From: a virus
Strand: one strand, 5' to 3'
Length of the DNA stretch: 24,942 nucleotides
Virus record (IMG/VR): IMGVR_UViG_3300013093_000258
Location: 1-24,942 of that record
The translations under genes and the position numbers were made by a program. The notes beneath the pieces were generated by a model that was given only the letters and a program-made list of their open reading frames with translations, did not search any database and was not told where the DNA came from. Shown in pieces: positions 9,447-24,229 of the stretch. Position 1 is the stretch's first letter, and every line of letters starts with the position of its first letter.

Positions 9447-9971
9447 TTACATCACTCCTTTTGCCATCATTTTTTGCATTAACTGCGTAAAGTCTGGAAC
9501 CGCATTTACTTGAACCATTTCCACAGCGGAACTAGGTCTTGAAGTAGCCAACATATCGCTAACGTCTCCTACAGGAGCGTCTATATTTTCCATAAAGCTC
9601 ATTCCGTCCATGCCAACTTCAGGCGCTCCAAAAGCCATAACGTCCTCTTGTAACATTCCAGAAGCAGTTTCGTTTAATAACTGACTCATAGGATCTTTAC
9701 CGGCAAAAGGTTTCTGAGCTTGCTGAAATTGCTGAGCTGGATTGAAAGGTCTTGTGTTTAAAGTTCCCGGTATAACTGGTTTTTTAGGGGCTGGTTTTGC
9801 CGCTTCTTGTATTGGAGCCAAAACTTTTTTATTCTTTGACTCTAATAATCTGTTTTGTTTGGCAAGGGCCTCCATGATCAAAACGGGCATTTCTTCCCTG
9901 ATCGCATTTTTAACTTCCTCTCTAATAAGGAATCTTAATTTAGCTAAAGCGCTTTGTTTTTTTACTGCCAT
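9447..9971 (-). CDS. Unknown 174-aa baseplate-operon protein
   Basis: I do not recognise this protein. It has three parts: a charged helical N-terminus (residues 3-48) with a likely coiled coil, LAKLRFLIREEVKNAIREE; a low-complexity Pro/Ala/Gln linker (about 50-90) with several KP and PA pairs and QFQQAQKPF; and a Met-rich C-terminus (LTQ- and MM-containing, ending MMAKGVM). It is the first gene of the gp25-gp6-gp7-like group, and a copy of ATATTTATA ends only 4 bases before its ATG, so its mRNA may be almost leaderless if that motif is a promoter. The composition suggests a flexible assembly or linker protein; this is inference. Confidence 0.72.
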   Translation of the reverse strand: MAVKKQSALAKLRFLIREEVKNAIREEMPVLIMEALAKQNRLLESKNKKVLAPIQEAAKPAPKKPVIPGTLNTRPFNPAQQFQQAQKPFAGKDPMSQLLNETASGMLQEDVMAFGAPEVGMDGMSFMENIDAPVGDVSDMLATSRPSSAVEMVQVNAVPDFTQLMQKMMAKGVM

Positions 9972-16873: not shown

Positions 16874-19800
16874 ATGCACAAGATACAAAGCACAATCGAA
16901 TTATCAAAGCTTAACAAGATATACCACGTAAGCGATATTCACATTAGAAACTTCAAAAGACACGACGAATACAATAGAGTCTTCGAAAGATTATACAGCT
17001 ACATAAGAGATACTTACACTGACAATAGTCTAATAGTATTGACAGGAGACATCGTACATTCAAAGACCGACGTTACTCCTGAATTGGTCGAAATGGTACA
17101 TACTTTCTTAAGAAATCTGTGTTCTATAGGTAAAGTACTAATGATTCCTGGTAATCACGATGCTAACTTAAATAACGCGCACAGAATGGACGCACTAACT
17201 CCAATCGTTAATGCGTTGAACGAACCAAATCTGTTGTACGTTAAAGATACTTGCCATTTTAAGATCGCAAATAGGACTTTTGTTCATTGGTCTGTATTCG
17301 ATAAAGAGGACAAGTACGTTAAGGCAGAAAAGATCAAAGGCGACTACAAGATCGCTTTATTCCACGGTCCTGTTACCGGCGTACAGATAAGAGAGAACGC
17401 TCAATTGTTAGATCAAAACTTAAATATTTCCGATTTTGAAGGCTTCGATATAGGATTGTTGGGAGATATTCATACGCGTCAATTTTTGGACGGAGAAAAT
17501 ACCATTGGATATCCAGGATCTTTAATTCAACAGAATCATGGAGAAATGATAGGCAAAGGTATATACGTTTGGGACTTAGAAAATAAGAAAGCAGAGTACG
17601 TAGAGATAGAAAATGATACAGCGTTCTACACAATCAACGTAGACACAGGAGTCTACGATCCAATTCCCTCTTACCTTCCTCAGAATTTGTATTTGAGAGT
17701 TAGATACAAAAATACTACTCAGTCCGTAATTAAAGATATCGTTTCTATTGTAAAACAAACAAGAAATGTAGTAGAAAGTTCGATACAAAAAGTTAACGAT
17801 TTTTCTAACACTGAAACAGGAGAAAAAAGACTACATAACATCGACGTAAGAGACGTAACTTATCAAAATACTATATTGACTAGTTTCTTAGAGACGACTT
17901 TTGGCGAAGATATAGAGTCAATTAACAGAGTATTGGAGATAAATACCAATCTTAATAAGTTATTGTCCAAGTCCGAAGTACCAAGAAATTCTATGTGGAT
18001 TCCTAAAAAGTTTGAGTTCGATAACATGTTCTCTTACGGCAAAGGCAACGTAGTAGATTTCTCAAGTATGGAAGGAACTTACGGTATATTCGCTCCAAAC
18101 GCAAGCGGAAAGTCAACTTTATTGGACTCTATTACGTATTGTATTTTTGATAAATGTTCTAAGACTGCTAAAGCAGGGCAAGTAATGAACAACCAATCTT
18201 CTAACTTCCACTGCAAATTAACTTTCGAATTACACGGTAAAGAATACACAATTGAGCGTAAAGGTATCAAGCAAAAGCAAGGTAACGTTAAAGTTAATGT
18301 AGACTTCTATTACATGGACGGTGAAGACATGGACGGTGAAGACAAAATATCGTTGAATGGTAAAGATCGAAGCGATACTAACGCTAAGATTAGAGAAGTT
18401 ATGGGCAATTACGAAGACTTTGTATTGACTGCTTTATCAGTTCAGAATAATAATACTGGATTCATTGACATGTCTCAAAGCGATCGTAAGGATTTGCTTT
18501 CTCAGTTCTTGGACATCAACGTATTCGAAGATCTGTACAACTTGGCCAATAACGAAATGAGAGACATATTAGTATTATTAAGAGAACATCAGAAAGAAGA
18601 CTATCACCAATTACTAAGAAAAGCTGAGTTCGATATTGATACTTTCGATATCGCATTAGAAGAAGCCAAAGAGCAAAAGACAGATATAGAAACTAAAAGA
18701 GCTCTAATCAATAGTCAAATATTAAATAAGACTGCGCAGCTAATTCCAGTTGATAAAGACATAGTTGACATCGATGGACTTGAAGAGCAAAAGACCGCAG
18801 TAGAAACCGGTATCTCAAAGGTAATTAATTTTATAGACATAAATTTAAAAGCTTTAGAAAGTATAGACGGTAAAATAGCCGAACTTAACTCACAAACTAT
18901 CTTCAATAAATTAATTAAAGACATCAATTTAGAAGATTATAGTCACAAATTAAGATCGCATCAACTTGATACCGAAGCTTTACAGCAAGAGAAATTAAAA
19001 TTAAGCCACGCTAAAGCAAACTTAAAGAATAGCCAAAAGAAGATGGAGAAATTGGCCGAACTTAAGTACGATCCAAACTGTAAATTCTGTATGGACAACG
19101 TATTTGTAAAAGACGCCATAGAAACAAAGAACACCATAAATTCTGAAGAGCAAGCGGTGTCGAATATCGAAGAAGTTATAGAGACTCTTGAAAAAAGGAT
19201 CAAACATTGGTCTTCTGCTATCGAAACAAAGGACGCAAAAGATAAGTACGATAAGAGTTTACAAGATCTTGAAGCTCAAAAGAACAGATTAAACGCGGAC
19301 GAAAACAAGTTAAATAAAAAGTTAAACGACGCCAAAGCTTTATTGACCAGCATAGAATCAAAGATCGAGGCTCATAATCAACAACAACAGGCAATAGAGA
19401 CCAATAATGATTTAAACTTAGAAATAAGCGAGCTAAATAAGGATCTAAAAGCTGTTGAGAGAGAACTAAACACAAAGAACGAAGAGATAGTCGAAATCTC
19501 TGCTAACAAAAAATTGGAAGAGAGCAATAAAGTAAAGTATCAAAAGTCGATAGAGAAGTTGAAGGACCTAGAAGTCAAGTCAAAGGATTATCAACAGTAC
19601 TTGGCTGCAACTCACAGAGACGGTATACCTCACATGTTAATCGCTAGTATTATACCTTCGGTAGAAGAGGAAATCAATAATATCCTTGCACAAATAGTGG
19701 ATTTCTCGATAGTTTTACAAGCCGAAGACAAGTCAATAAATGCTTACATTGCCTACTCAGAAGAGGATTATTGGCCTTTGGAGTTGACCTCTGGAATGGA

Positions 19801-20062
19801 GAAGTTCGTAGCTAGTTTGGCCATTAGAACGTCTTTAATTAACGTGTCATCTTTACCAAAGCCTAATTTCTTGGCTATCGACGAAGGCTTTGGAGCGCTA
19901 GATTCTAGCAATTTAAACTCTATGGTGATGCTATTCGACTACTTGAAGACACAGTTTAAGTTCATTATGATCATATCCCATATAGATTCCATGAGAGATA
20001 TCGTAGACTCTCACATAGAAATTAATAAGACAAACGGCAAATCTAAAATAGCGCATCCGTAG
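16874..20062 (+). CDS. Fused Mre11-Rad50/SbcD-SbcC recombination nuclease (gp47-gp46 fusion)
   Basis: One 1062-aa frame encodes both subunits that T4 makes as gp47 and gp46. Residues about 14-260 are an Mre11/SbcD metallophosphoesterase: SDIH (20-23), LTGDIVHSK (56-64), PGNHD (92-96), HGPV (164-167) and GDIHTR (197-202) provide the metal ligands. From about residue 380 an SbcC/Rad50 ATPase follows: Walker A FAPNASGKST (406-415), Q-loop region LSVQNNN (521-527), long coiled coils with a zinc hook C736-K-F-C739, signature ELTSGMEKF (970-978) and Walker B FLAIDEGFGALD (999-1010). The complex processes DNA ends for recombination-dependent replication. No frameshift or stop interrupts the junction (about 365-385). 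A perfect 15-bp tandem duplication is present at 18314-18343. Confidence 0.93.
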   Translation: MHKIQSTIELSKLNKIYHVSDIHIRNFKRHDEYNRVFERLYSYIRDTYTDNSLIVLTGDIVHSKTDVTPELVEMVHTFLRNLCSIGKVLMIPGNHDANLNNAHRMDALTPIVNALNEPNLLYVKDTCHFKIANRTFVHWSVFDKEDKYVKAEKIKGDYKIALFHGPVTGVQIRENAQLLDQNLNISDFEGFDIGLLGDIHTRQFLDGENTIGYPGSLIQQNHGEMIGKGIYVWDLENKKAEYVEIENDTAFYTINVDTGVYDPIPSYLPQNLYLRVRYKNTTQSVIKDIVSIVKQTRNVVESSIQKVNDFSNTETGEKRLHNIDVRDVTYQNTILTSFLETTFGEDIESINRVLEINTNLNKLLSKSEVPRNSMWIPKKFEFDNMFSYGKGNVVDFSSMEGTYGIFAPNASGKSTLLDSITYCIFDKCSKTAKAGQVMNNQSSNFHCKLTFELHGKEYTIERKGIKQKQGNVKVNVDFYYMDGEDMDGEDKISLNGKDRSDTNAKIREVMGNYEDFVLTALSVQNNNTGFIDMSQSDRKDLLSQFLDINVFEDLYNLANNEMRDILVLLREHQKEDYHQLLRKAEFDIDTFDIALEEAKEQKTDIETKRALINSQILNKTAQLIPVDKDIVDIDGLEEQKTAVETGISKVINFIDINLKALESIDGKIAELNSQTIFNKLIKDINLEDYSHKLRSHQLDTEALQQEKLKLSHAKANLKNSQKKMEKLAELKYDPNCKFCMDNVFVKDAIETKNTINSEEQAVSNIEEVIETLEKRIKHWSSAIETKDAKDKYDKSLQDLEAQKNRLNADENKLNKKLNDAKALLTSIESKIEAHNQQQQAIETNNDLNLEISELNKDLKAVERELNTKNEEIVEISANKKLEESNKVKYQKSIEKLKDLEVKSKDYQQYLAATHRDGIPHMLIASIIPSVEEEINNILAQIVDFSIVLQAEDKSINAYIAYSEEDYWPLELTSGMEKFVASLAIRTSLINVSSLPKPNFLAIDEGFGALDSSNLNSMVMLFDYLKTQFKFIMIISHIDSMRDIVDSHIEINKTNGKSKIAHP
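18314..18343 (+). repeat. Perfect 15-bp tandem duplication in the nuclease-ATPase gene
   Basis: Two adjacent copies of ATGGACGGTGAAGAC encode the peptide MDGED twice (residues 481-490). The unit is a multiple of three so the frame is kept. It lies between the ATPase N-lobe strands, in what looks like a surface loop. Confidence 0.9.
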
Positions 20063-20084: not shown

Positions 20085-21779
20085 ATGGATTTTAACGTGA
20101 TCAAGACAGTAATCGCAATATACCCAGGAAGATTCCAGCCTTTTGGTAAACACCACGCGGATTCTTTTAAATGGCTAGAATCAAAGTTCGGTGCAGCGGA
20201 TACTTTCATAGCGACTACAGACAAAGTGGAACCTCCAAAGAGTCCATTGAACTTTAAAGAGAAAAAAGCCATCATATCCAAGTACGGATTCGGCAATCAA
20301 GTAGTTCAAGTTAAAAATCCTTACAAAGCCGAAGAGATCACATCAAAATACGATCCTAAGACTACCGCTGTTGTATTCATGGTAGGACAAAAGGACATGC
20401 AAGAGGATCCAAGATTCAAAATTGGCAAAAAGAAAGATGGTACTGATTCTTATTTTAGAAAGTACGAAAAGGACGGAGTGATGAAGCCTTATACTTCTCA
20501 TGGCTATTTAATAGTAGCTCCTCATGCTTCTCATGAAATTCCTGGTATCGGAGAAATGAGCGGTACAAACATTAGAAAAGCTCTATCTACTCCTACCACC
20601 GCGTCTCAATATAAGAAAAACTTCGAAGGAGTATTTGGATGGTGGGACGAAAAGCTTGCCATGTTAATGAAGCAGAAGTTCTCGTCTCAGCCGCTTAAAG
20701 AAGTGTCTGTATTGAGTACTCTTTTTAAGAAGCTATTAATGGAAGGAGGAGCTGGAGGACACATGGCTCATCCGTTTGATTTGGACAAAGTGAAGACCGG
20801 CAAAGATTTGATAGCAGTGTTCGAACAAACCGCAAAATTCTTACAAAAGAATCCAGCTCCAGTAAAAATAGACGGAGTAAACGCTTCTATAAGATTGGGC
20901 AATATAAATGGCAAGAGAGAATTCGTAATCGATAGAGGTTCTGGAAAGGAACTAGACATCAAAGGAGTTACCAAAGCCGATTTGCCTGCAAGATTTGACA
21001 CGCCTGGTCACGGTATGATTAAAGTTGGAGGAAAAGTTTTAGACATATTCAACGAAGCTTTGCCTTCAATTAAGGACGAGTTGAACAAATTGGGTATGAT
21101 CAAGAATCCTAATATTCTTTTTAATATAGAGTACGTAGAGGGCAAAACAAACGTACAGGACTACGGTAAAAACTTCTTGGCGATACACAATTTACTTGAG
21201 ATAACACAAAATCCGGGCAAAAAATCTAGATCAACTCACGAAATTCCTTACTCAAAAGAAGTACTTGAGTCACTTATACAAAAATTACAGCCTTTTGCGA
21301 AGAAGCAAGGATTCGAAGTACTATCTTCAATCCCAGCAAAAGTTACAAAAACTCCAAACTTCGGTTCGGCTTTGTCAAAGAGCTATCCAATAGTATTGGC
21401 AAAGGGCAAAAAAGAAACAAAGAGCCTAAAAGACTGGTTGAATCAAGCCAAGAATACGAAGGGTATGAAACTTAAATTGAAAGACGGTAAAGTTGTTGAC
21501 GCTTTGAGCAAATTAGTTTTCTTGGAAGTCAAGAAAGGCACTCCAGTTACAGAATTGGTTGCCGATCCTAAGGACGCTAAGATCGCCATGGACTCCTTTG
21601 CTATATACGAAGGTACCATGGAACTTGGAGACGTATTATTAAAATCAATGACAAGTCCATTGGGCCCAGTCGATCAACAAGAAGGTATAGTTGTAAGAGA
21701 TCCAGCAATATCGAACGAGCCATTCAAAATTACAGGATCATTTATCGTTAGAGGCTTACAAACAACGTTTACAAAATAA
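20085..21779 (+). CDS. Nucleotidylyltransferase-polynucleotide ligase fusion
   Basis: This 564-aa protein joins two enzyme domains. Residues about 7-195 match the HIGH-type nucleotidylyltransferase fold (NMN adenylyltransferase/cytidylyltransferase): GRFQPFGKHHA (15-25, the GxFxPxHxGH-type site) and EMSGTNIRKAL (157-167, the ISSTxIR-type motif). Residues about 222-564 look like an ATP-dependent RNA/DNA ligase core: motif I PVKIDGVNASIR (259-270) with candidate AMP-accepting K261, NILFNIEYVEG (343-353, motif III/IIIa region), QEGIVVRD (532-539, motif IV) and FKITGSF (547-553, motif V with K548). A conserved-looking linker GGAGGHMAHPFDL begins the ligase half. Possible roles are NAD synthesis or salvage combined with RNA repair or end modification; the substrate is unknown. 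It shares one base with the next gene's start (TAATG). Confidence 0.8.
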   Translation: MDFNVIKTVIAIYPGRFQPFGKHHADSFKWLESKFGAADTFIATTDKVEPPKSPLNFKEKKAIISKYGFGNQVVQVKNPYKAEEITSKYDPKTTAVVFMVGQKDMQEDPRFKIGKKKDGTDSYFRKYEKDGVMKPYTSHGYLIVAPHASHEIPGIGEMSGTNIRKALSTPTTASQYKKNFEGVFGWWDEKLAMLMKQKFSSQPLKEVSVLSTLFKKLLMEGGAGGHMAHPFDLDKVKTGKDLIAVFEQTAKFLQKNPAPVKIDGVNASIRLGNINGKREFVIDRGSGKELDIKGVTKADLPARFDTPGHGMIKVGGKVLDIFNEALPSIKDELNKLGMIKNPNILFNIEYVEGKTNVQDYGKNFLAIHNLLEITQNPGKKSRSTHEIPYSKEVLESLIQKLQPFAKKQGFEVLSSIPAKVTKTPNFGSALSKSYPIVLAKGKKETKSLKDWLNQAKNTKGMKLKLKDGKVVDALSKLVFLEVKKGTPVTELVADPKDAKIAMDSFAIYEGTMELGDVLLKSMTSPLGPVDQQEGIVVRDPAISNEPFKITGSFIVRGLQTTFTK

Positions 21780-22177
21780 TGACTACACAAGAACGCATAG
21801 ACCTAATAGAGGACTTTATAGACTTTGCTAGCTATCACTTAAAGATAGAGGAACTTCCAAAGATGACATTCATTGGAGACAAGAGTTGGGTATTAGCCAG
21901 ACACAGTTTTGGTGAGTATACCAACGAAACCAACTCTATAGTAATGTATATAGCTAACAGAAATTTAGCTGACGTCCTAAGAACTCTGGGTCACGAATTA
22001 ACGCATCACAGACAGAACGAACTTGGATTATTGTATTCCCAATCTGGTGAGACAGGATCTCCAATAGAAGACGAAGCCAACGTTGTAGCCGGTATTCTAA
22101 TGAGAGAGTTTGGCAAGAAACACGAATTAATATACGAAGGCGTTAAGCTAAACGTATTGAAGCAACTTATAAAATAA
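21779..22177 (+). CDS. Small zinc metallopeptidase-like protein (HExxH)
   Basis: This 132-aa protein has the zincin motif H72-E-L-T-H76 within TLGHELTHHRQ (69-79), and a downstream acidic helix, SPIEDEANVVAG (94-105), whose E97 or E99 could be the third zinc ligand of a gluzincin-like site. No signal peptide or membrane segment is present, so it would act in the host cytoplasm or inside the virion. The C-terminal I118-Y-E-G121 fits the T4 prohead protease rule (I/L)-x-E|(A/G), though such a short match can occur by chance. The start overlaps the previous stop by one base. The substrate is unknown; a SprT-like or maturation peptidase is possible. Confidence 0.75.
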   Translation: MTTQERIDLIEDFIDFASYHLKIEELPKMTFIGDKSWVLARHSFGEYTNETNSIVMYIANRNLADVLRTLGHELTHHRQNELGLLYSQSGETGSPIEDEANVVAGILMREFGKKHELIYEGVKLNVLKQLIK

Positions 22178-22777: not shown

Positions 22778-23392
22778 ATGCCTGCAAAATCAAAAGCACA
22801 ACAAAGACTAATGGGAATGGTACACGCCGCACAAAAAGGTGAAAAATCAGCTAGTCCTAAGGTAGCAAAATTAGCCAAATCAATGACTAAAAAATCAGCA
22901 ACAGACTTCGCTTCTACAAAGCACAAAGGTCTTCCAAACAAAAAGAAAAAGCCAAAGTACGAAAATAATATCGGAGAAATCCACGCAGTATTACACCCAC
23001 ACGAAGGTTGTAGCGTTGCAGGTATGGTTAAAGAAATCGATCCATTGAAAGGATTGGCTCCTCATTCTATTATGGCCGAGGAAGTACACAGCTTGCATCC
23101 AACAAAAGAAGCAGCTTTAAAAACAGCGGAAAAACTTCACTCAGGCCATTTAAAAAAGCTTGAAGAGATCGAAAAGAAAAAAGATCATGTGGCCAAAAAA
23201 ATTACCCATGCGATTGATAATTTAGAAAAGAAAAGAAAAGAGCACATTGATTTGGCAAAGAACGATCCAAAGAACGCAAGATCTCACAAAGAACACATCG
23301 CTCATTTGGCTCACCAAATAGACGATTTGATGGACAAACTAGAAAAGGTTGAGAGATCAAAAAAACACAAAAAAGAAGATAAAAAGAAATAA
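22778..23392 (+). CDS. Basic DUF3008-type protein with His/Lys-rich tail
   Basis: Residues 1-57 follow the pattern of the small DUF3008 family: MPAKSKAQQRLMGMVHAAQK, SPKVAKLAKSMTKKSATDFA and STKHKGLPNK. Usually such proteins are short; here a further 145 residues follow. Residues about 68-100 contain IHAVLHPHEGCSVAGMVKEI (one cysteine, several His), and the rest is a highly charged His/Lys/Glu coiled coil ending KKHKKEDKKK. The strong positive charge at both ends suggests binding to DNA, perhaps inside the capsid. It starts the last gene group, immediately after a candidate late promoter, and is followed with no gap by another basic protein. Family name from pattern recall; role inferred. Confidence 0.75.
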   Translation: MPAKSKAQQRLMGMVHAAQKGEKSASPKVAKLAKSMTKKSATDFASTKHKGLPNKKKKPKYENNIGEIHAVLHPHEGCSVAGMVKEIDPLKGLAPHSIMAEEVHSLHPTKEAALKTAEKLHSGHLKKLEEIEKKKDHVAKKITHAIDNLEKKRKEHIDLAKNDPKNARSHKEHIAHLAHQIDDLMDKLEKVERSKKHKKEDKKK

Positions 23393-23722: not shown

Positions 23723-24229
23723 ATGGTAAAACTATCAACTATACTAAAAGAGATCCTAGAAGCGGAAAGAACTAAGTCAGGACGCAAAGTTAATAAAGCG
23801 TATTTGACAAAGAATAAGTCCGCTATGAAAAGGGAAATAGACAGAGTCGCCAAATTAAAGAACGACGATCCTTCTGCGTATAGAAAATGGGACGCTGATT
23901 ATCCAAAAAAGGACAAGAAAAAACCTTACAAGACAAAAAAATCGGTAGCTACATCAGCCTATCATAAAAGATTTGGAGAAAATATAAACGAAGGAAACGA
24001 GGACAAAGCTTTAGCCAATAAGGCAAAAGCCACTGGTATATCAAAATCGGTATTACGGGGTGTATATAATAAAGGTTTAGCGGCGTGGAAAACTGGACAC
24101 AGACCTGGAGTTAGTCAGCACCAATGGGCAATGGCAAGAGTAAATTCATTCGTTACTGGAAAAGGCGGAGCGAGAAAAGCTGACAAAGGTCTTTGGAAAA
24201 AAGCTTCGAAGTCAAAGAAGAAAAAATAA
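23723..24229 (+). CDS. Basic DUF5824-like protein with candidate capsid-targeting leader
   Basis: This 168-aa Lys-rich protein begins MVKLSTILKEILEAERTKSG. The amphipathic leader ending I11-L-E13|A14 resembles in length and ending the capsid-targeting sequence of T4 internal proteins (MKTYQEFIAE|A), which gp21 protease removes. Residues about 98-152 form a compact conserved-looking domain, KATGISKSVLRGVYNKGLAA, WKTGHRPGVSQHQWAMARVN, SFVTGKGGARKADKGLW, similar to what is called DUF5824. The tail is KKASKSKKKK. It ends the basic trio (204, 105 and 168 aa). Possible role: DNA-binding protein packaged in the head and ejected into the host. Family by recall; the packaging idea is inference. Confidence 0.75.
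   Translation: MVKLSTILKEILEAERTKSGRKVNKAYLTKNKSAMKREIDRVAKLKNDDPSAYRKWDADYPKKDKKKPYKTKKSVATSAYHKRFGENINEGNEDKALANKAKATGISKSVLRGVYNKGLAAWKTGHRPGVSQHQWAMARVNSFVTGKGGARKADKGLWKKASKSKKKK

Follow-up and report, generated by a model that had tools for sequence, protein, structure and literature searches.

For IPIII, an internal protein of phage T4, an N-terminal stretch of 10 residues is enough for targeting to the head, and residues 8 and 10 determine its processing (PMC9026906). In addition, NMNAT-like or cytidylyltransferase proteins have been detected by mass spectrometry in the virions of S-CBWM1, S-SZBM1, S-SCSM1 and S-CREM2, with co-purification of virion-detected proteins not excluded by the S-CREM2 authors (PMC10665884, PMC9602691), and polyvalent phage proteins are injected, with metallopeptidase domains as their hubs (PMC5512222). 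Here we analyze a 24,942-base fragment of a T4-like phage, IMG/VR record IMGVR_UViG_3300013093_000258, whose virus is assigned to aquatic bacteria; the whole of this stretch is referred to below as the window. Its gene P0001 encodes a nucleotidyltransferase (NT) of the NMNAT/PPAT fold followed by a covalent-nucleotidyltransferase (ligase-fold) module, and a conserved junction of the prohead-protease type lies between the two. The parts are of known kinds, namely HIGH nucleotidyltransferases, covalent nucleotidyltransferases and head-packaged proteins. A polyprotein of this kind, with paired enzymes separated by a site and released by alternative routes, has no description in the open-access literature as far as we searched it; no direct account of a phage NT-ligase pair was found there, an absence that is weak evidence. 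The features of P0001 are as follows.

20085..21779, + strand: NT-ligase polyprotein gene P0001, 564 amino acids (open reading frame; homologous loci, many of them full length)
20103..20693, + strand: NT domain, residues 7-203, HIGH-type nucleotidyltransferase fold (structure match; PF01467; phrog_395)
20127..20156, + strand: motif GRFQPFGKHH, residues 15-24, with HxGH altered to GxHH (alignment A5)
20559..20576, + strand: motif SGTNIR, residues 159-164, with T161 and R164 invariant (alignment A5)
20694..20744, + strand: linker, residues 204-220, ending in a prohead-protease-type site, LLME, before G221 (junction tally; low model confidence at 202-225)
20745..21776, + strand: ligase-like module, residues 221-564, starting GGAGGHMAHPFD (AlphaFold model, structure match to T4 Rnl1)
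20865..20882, + strand: motif I, KIDGVN, with K261 the predicted nucleophile (K, D and G 100% conserved in 144 distinct modules)
21123..21188, + strand: motif III region, residues 347-368 (E349, N356 and Y360 100% conserved)
21681..21698, + strand: motif IV, EGIVVR, residues 533-538 (E533 and G534 100% conserved)
21726..21737, + strand: motif V, K548-x-T550-G551 (K548, T550 and G551 100% conserved)

The gene starts with ATG at 20085 and stops at 21777-21779 (+), matching the coordinates given beforehand in a preliminary description of this DNA, and it is flanked by a fused SbcCD gene upstream and a short metallopeptidase gene downstream. The two NT motifs named in that description were recovered at residues 15-24 and 159-164, with the correction that the first carries GxHH in place of HxGH. 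Misassembly of the window is unlikely, because four other contigs found in the IMG/VR scan encode P0001 at full length with 99-100% identity. In two relatives (L034 and L036) the NT-ligase frame is interrupted by a frameshift or stop, for which sequence error and true gene splitting are both possible.

The ligase module starts with the block GGxxGHMxH in nearly every member of the family, the exception being L069, and what precedes this block is strongly constrained. Our junction tally comprised 48 distinct upstream sequences and 10 open reading frames. All 48 distinct, though related, internal junctions carry [LIV]xE directly before GG (45 of them [LI]xE), compared with 95 of 4627 (2.05%) before other glycines of the same proteins, while the 10 further reading frames have Met directly before GG. 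At the junction Glu invariably occupies P1 and P3 is taken by L, I or V; among the 12 positions it is P2 that varies most. The window follows the gp21-type pattern, with LLME before GG. Across P0001 as a whole, LxE-type sites number 3 against 1.15 expected, which is not significant, and the claim of processing is therefore drawn from the junction. As a plain sequence signature, the conserved junction can also serve to detect further head-packaged enzymes in T4-like phages. Among side observations, a 759-residue open reading frame in L029-L033 holds, between NT and ligase, an inserted domain some 165 residues in length, bounded by LKE/S and LNE/S, as if it had been placed there with its own cleavage sites.

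Similar sites occur at the ends of short leader peptides. The ligase module is preceded by MNLIKILLSE in L039, MQEELLLE in L076 and MSDLLLE in L079, and by another short propeptide in L080; that of L039, which precedes a split ligase gene, is 10 residues long with L8 and E10. Many NT domains likewise carry an N-terminal peptide ending in [LIV]xE, and propeptides of the capsid-targeting kind are found in L019, L068, L180 and others, those of some relatives being T4-like and 10 residues long. In the N-terminal region of the major capsid proteins of related records, AKQL[IVL]xE stands at about residue 60, in most cases with Ala next to it. The family shares with T4 internal proteins and Alt, which are processed by gp21, the [LI]xE cut rule and, in some members, 10-residue propeptides; it differs in that the window site is internal, between two enzymes. 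As for the cyanophage virion proteins, S-CREM2 gp154, S-SCSM1 gp91 and S-CBWM1 gp39 match our profile of a second NT type, NTb (S-SZBM1 is the fourth phage with such a virion protein). The first two begin with LxE/A propeptides (MKNFSSFLTE/A and MKSFLQFLKE/A, respectively), and gp39 lacks a start of this type. The window NT, however, is of the other type; profile searches of S-CREM2 and S-CBWM1 turned up no ligase module, and none came up among the S-SCSM1 proteins that were tested. In Microcystis phage Mel-JY01 the distance from the NT-ligase gene to the terminase gene that follows it is 2.6 kb, and to the prohead protease gene about 8 kb, and the order after it is terminase, prohead protease, a gene that we assign from its sequence as ART-like, and capsid.

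A wider sample contains a subgroup with Met in place of Glu at the junction (ELLLM-GG), that is, with an in-frame internal ATG, many of these having a Shine-Dalgarno sequence; in most ELLLM members AAGGAG stands 9 nucleotides before ATG-GG. In this group the Glu codon is GAG in 12 of 12 distinct sequences, compared with 26% GAG usage in the same reading frames, while the Leu codons vary (p of about 9e-8, without correction for relatedness). Since [LIV]xE junctions, Met-GG starts and ELLLM internal ATGs all precede GG, the same Gly-Gly N-terminus appears, judging from the genes, to be exposed in three ways: by cleavage, by a gene start and by an internal start. This convergence gives a testable prediction on the N-terminus of the ligase.

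The ligase module was modelled alone (residues 218-564, AlphaFold, diverse alignment), giving a confident model with a pLDDT of 89.5 and a pTM of 0.85. A Foldseek search of the PDB with it returned no match below E 1e-3. When the Foldseek matches were re-aligned, T4 RNA ligase 1 came first (Z 9.2 over 179 residues at 3.8 Å), followed by the Naegleria RNA ligase, archaeal RNA ligases, TbREL1, T4 Rnl2 and fungal tRNA ligase; further down came DNA ligases and capping enzyme. All of the first 35 PDB structure matches belong to the covalent-nucleotidyltransferase superfamily, which bears out the ligase nucleotidyltransferase fold expected for the C-terminal half; NAD+-dependent LigA is absent among the structural matches listed, an absence that proves nothing. 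The ligase motifs named beforehand, KIDG at 261-264, EGIVVR at 533-538 and FKITG with K548, are all present, their motif residues being 100% conserved in 144 homologues. K261, D263, G264, E349, E533 and K548 are found in 144 of 144 or 143 of 143 distinct modules, which supports the earlier proposal of K261 as the predicted nucleophile.

Sequence comparison sets the module apart. It has no Pfam, PHROGs or PADLOC match, and PDB sequence searches gave no credible match; the best E-value for Pfam RNA_ligase was 0.058, in 3 of 16 members of A4, and this family was not listed for P0001. With T4 Rnl1 and the Rnl1/Rnl2/Rnl3 ligases the module shares the fold, the order of motifs I, III, IV and V, and an invariant Lys nucleophile, but it has no clear sequence relation to them and differs in its GGxxGHMxH start, a block for which we know of no counterpart in ATP-dependent RNA ligases, in a large region of extra residues between motifs III and IV, in the absence of a C-terminal domain, and in its fused or paired NT. 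RNA ligases have KxK as the form of motif V, whereas the module has KxTG in 143 of 143 cases, unlike Rnl1, Rnl2 and Rnl3. P0001 ends 16 residues past K548, which leaves no sequence for the family-specific C-terminal domain of those RNA ligases or for the OB-fold with motif VI that DNA ligases and capping enzymes carry beyond motif V. The module looks like a new family within the superfamily: environmental viruses hold several hundred members and the catalytic set is conserved in full, yet there is no Pfam, PHROGs or PADLOC model for it and no PDB sequence match. Its fold would allow the joining or repair of RNA ends, and RNA ends as its target are a tentative assignment that we place somewhat short of even.

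The NMNAT-like character proposed for the N-terminal half held in structure and was weak in sequence. The model of residues 7-203 matches archaeal NMNAT (1m8j, 1f9a) with Z 12.3, tied with PPAT, and the top rows of structure matches align 145-152 residues at 2.6-3.1 Å. By sequence, profile matches are weak (Pfam PF01467, E 0.018; phrog_395 cytidyltransferase, E 2.3e-4), and PDB profile matches are chiefly to PPAT, with some to NMNAT. The nearest models in NCBIfam, which was scanned with the NT half only, are NMN adenylyltransferases, the best window score being 15.6 bits against a cut-off of 449. Profile searches, to which the preliminary description had pointed for both halves, delivered weak matches for the NT (PF01467 and phrog_395) and none for the ligase in Pfam, PHROGs, PADLOC or the PDB. 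The window NT carries GKHH at 21-24 where (H/T)xGH would be expected; elsewhere HRGH occurs in L069 and LR756508, and the motif is mostly canonical in NTb. GRFQP, T161 and R164 are kept by the NT in all aligned members. Compared with archaeal-type NMNAT, NadM, NadR and PPAT, the window NT is alike in fold (Z 12), GRFQP and SGTxxR, but has GxHH, falls far short of every NCBIfam cut-off, and has a ligase-like partner instead of a Nudix or kinase partner. With NMNAT and PPAT matching equally, profiles weak and the HIGH motif varying by type, these comparisons do not single out its substrate. Both fold assignments, NT and ligase, are made from the models with high confidence.

The first IMG/VR scan for P0001 recovered 67 homologous loci and a second one 14 relatives, while a profile scan with the ligase module yielded at least 473 confirmed relatives; a scan with the LR756508 module as a single sequence found no relatives. 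Using profiles built in this analysis on the fetched loci, with overlapping loci of one record included, we counted 92 NTa-lig, 35 NTb-lig, 11 lig-NTb and 9 lig-NTa architectures and 38 ligase-only reading frames, many of the latter cut by contig ends. NT and ligase are two adjacent genes in L039 and L051. Since both orders, both NT types and adjacent-gene forms all occur, the two modules stay paired through changes in order, NT type and covalent fusion. The inference drawn earlier from finding both activities in a single chain is weakened: given the two orders, the split genes, the apparent internal starts and the protease-type site between the modules, NT and ligase appear to be partner enzymes produced as a polyprotein and not a single bifunctional enzyme.

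Computation supports both folds, the catalytic residues with the core motif set, the linkage of the modules and the conserved junction. From this combination we infer a course of packaging, cleavage, injection, AMP loading and RNA targeting, together with the substrates and role that would go with it. The precursor would enter the T4-like phage head, where the prohead protease would cut after LLME-220 and leave the ligase with a free Gly-Gly-x-x-Gly-His-Met N-terminus; this packaging and processing we consider fairly probable. Both enzymes would then be injected with the DNA and be active before phage gene expression. The NT half would take a nucleotide from an NTP and couple this to a small phosphorylated molecule, most likely NMN-like, and the ligase half would load AMP onto K261 and transfer it to the 5' end of a nucleic acid, RNA being the likeliest, with RNA repair or modification plus nucleotide cofactor supply as the probable purpose. 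Taken together, a head-packaged polyprotein matured into two injected enzymes is the reading we favor, at marginally better than even. It predicts the processed ligase half in virions of Mel-JY01, with peptides beginning GGLGGHMNHPFD. A more elaborate form is rather improbable, in which the head carries an end-modification kit of a new RNA-ligase family requiring a free Gly-Gly, exposed in any of the three ways, and an NMNAT-type enzyme making or recycling its dinucleotide, so that cut RNA or depleted host NAD is restored from the start of infection.

Several observations weigh against the favored reading. The junction sequences are kin, so 48 of 48 does not amount to 48 independent events, and we found no proteomic or biochemical data on the ligase-module family. 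The altered GxHH of this NT, a motif V of KxT form where KxK would be usual, and the lack of a C-terminal RNA-binding domain beyond motif V make activity and substrate uncertain. The candidate of the Pseudomonas jumbo phage PA5oct described below stands among structural genes detected by mass spectrometry and is not itself marked as detected. Other adverse points also suit the alternative that the enzymes are not packaged, being made and acting in the infected cell with LxE-GG kept for folding, for another protease or the like: the window gene comes after SbcCD and primase genes, which it adjoins, and not after head genes; P0001 has an internal site only, its type lacking the N-terminal propeptide for capsid targeting; and Met-GG starts and internal starts yield the same end without any protease. 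We nevertheless regard this alternative as unlikely, since P1 and P3 are conserved while P2 varies, relatives carry T4-type propeptides, the same cut rule applies at capsid-protein sites, and related NT proteins have been detected in virions (PMC10665884, PMC9602691).

A coupled, dinucleotide-driven ligase is likewise doubtful, and a little more so. Here the ligase would take AMP from NAD+ or a related dinucleotide and free NMN, from which the NT would rebuild NAD+ with ATP, in one cycle whether the chain is cut or uncut. The near-obligate pairing across orders and NT types suggests one pathway, the NT's nearest NCBIfam models are NMN adenylyltransferases, and the invariant GGxxGHMxH block has, to our knowledge, no counterpart in ATP-dependent RNA ligases. 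Against this, PPAT fits the NT as well as NMNAT does, and ATP-dependent RNA ligases head the ligase's structure matches; LigA is missing among those listed, which does not exclude the coupled reading. A link to NAD salvage also failed to find support in genome content: neither NAPRTase nor NadV was found in 13 related records (several of them partial), leaving an NAD-salvage operon unsupported as context.

It is very unlikely that the pair is an injected host-takeover modifier placing AMP or an NAD-derived group onto a protein or small molecule, with the NT degenerate or making the substrate: the KxT motif V with no RNA-binding domain after it (also in alignment A1), the GxHH of the NT and the commonness of injected modifying enzymes among polyvalent proteins (PMC5512222) would agree with it, but RNA ligases are the top structural neighbours, the core ligase motifs are all invariant, and GRFQP, T161 and R164 are retained by all aligned NTs.

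Two neighbouring genes of the window bear on the polyvalent-protein concept.

21779..22177, + strand: HELTHH metallopeptidase-like gene (37-44% identity to domains between NT and ligase in relatives)
23723..24229, + strand: DUF5824 gene with LxE-type sites ILE/A and INE/G (Pfam E 1.8e-21; phrog_3041 E 5.3e-12)

Relatives of the first product form a fused domain, placed between NT and ligase, in each of L165, L182, L186, L199, L203 and L204, so that NT, ligase and HExxH stand in one chain in L165, L199 and L203; the same HELTHH gene lies downstream in at least 24 relatives, and the NTb-lig group has another HExxH domain inside the chain. The window DUF5824 matches the C-terminus of PHROG 3041, annotated as a cytidyltransferase, to which the domain is fused there. 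Both neighbours fit the injected-protein concept of PMC5512222. NT-ligase resembles the polyvalent proteins in having unrelated catalytic domains in one chain, a zincin partner and, in Mel-JY01, virion genes nearby in a late-gene vicinity; it differs from them in that the same pair recurs almost invariably and in the cut sites between modules.

Other genes of the window include, at 16874-20062 (+), one for a 1062-residue chain that joins an SbcD-like phosphoesterase to an SbcC-like ATPase, with a DnaG-like primase directly upstream. At 22778-23392 (+), near the NT-ligase gene, lies a Lys-rich, DUF3008-containing protein starting MPAKSKAQQRLMGM, matched by several PHROGs of unknown function. 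A 174-residue product encoded at 9447-9971 (-), among baseplate genes, has five LxE-type sites against 0.35 expected by shuffling and is a possible processed head-core protein.

With regard to the wider spread of the ligase module, profile searches were empty for T4, P-SSM2, S-CREM2, S-CBWM1, metaG-MbCM1 and P-TIM68, whereas a BFVD fold search does list proteins of metaG-MbCM1, P-TIM68 and PA5oct. The PA5oct protein EST35_0228 (L107 1297-2637, 446 amino acids), with KIDG, EIEVLYG..NVIEYDG and EGYVIR, is a possible distant relative; its sequence link is weak and it remains a lead. The module is not in general a stand-in for a missing RNA ligase, as Mel-JY01 and LR756508 have PF09414-type matches elsewhere, that of Mel-JY01 falling under the curated cut-off yet being annotated as an RNA ligase. 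Finally, ligase-module relatives occur on two very large contigs, L126 (ONIZ01000001, 410 kb) and L128 (CADBGE010000001, 400 kb), filed as rumen Firmicutes and Erysipelotrichaceae metagenome-assembled genomes, each of which may be a mis-binned huge phage or a provirus.
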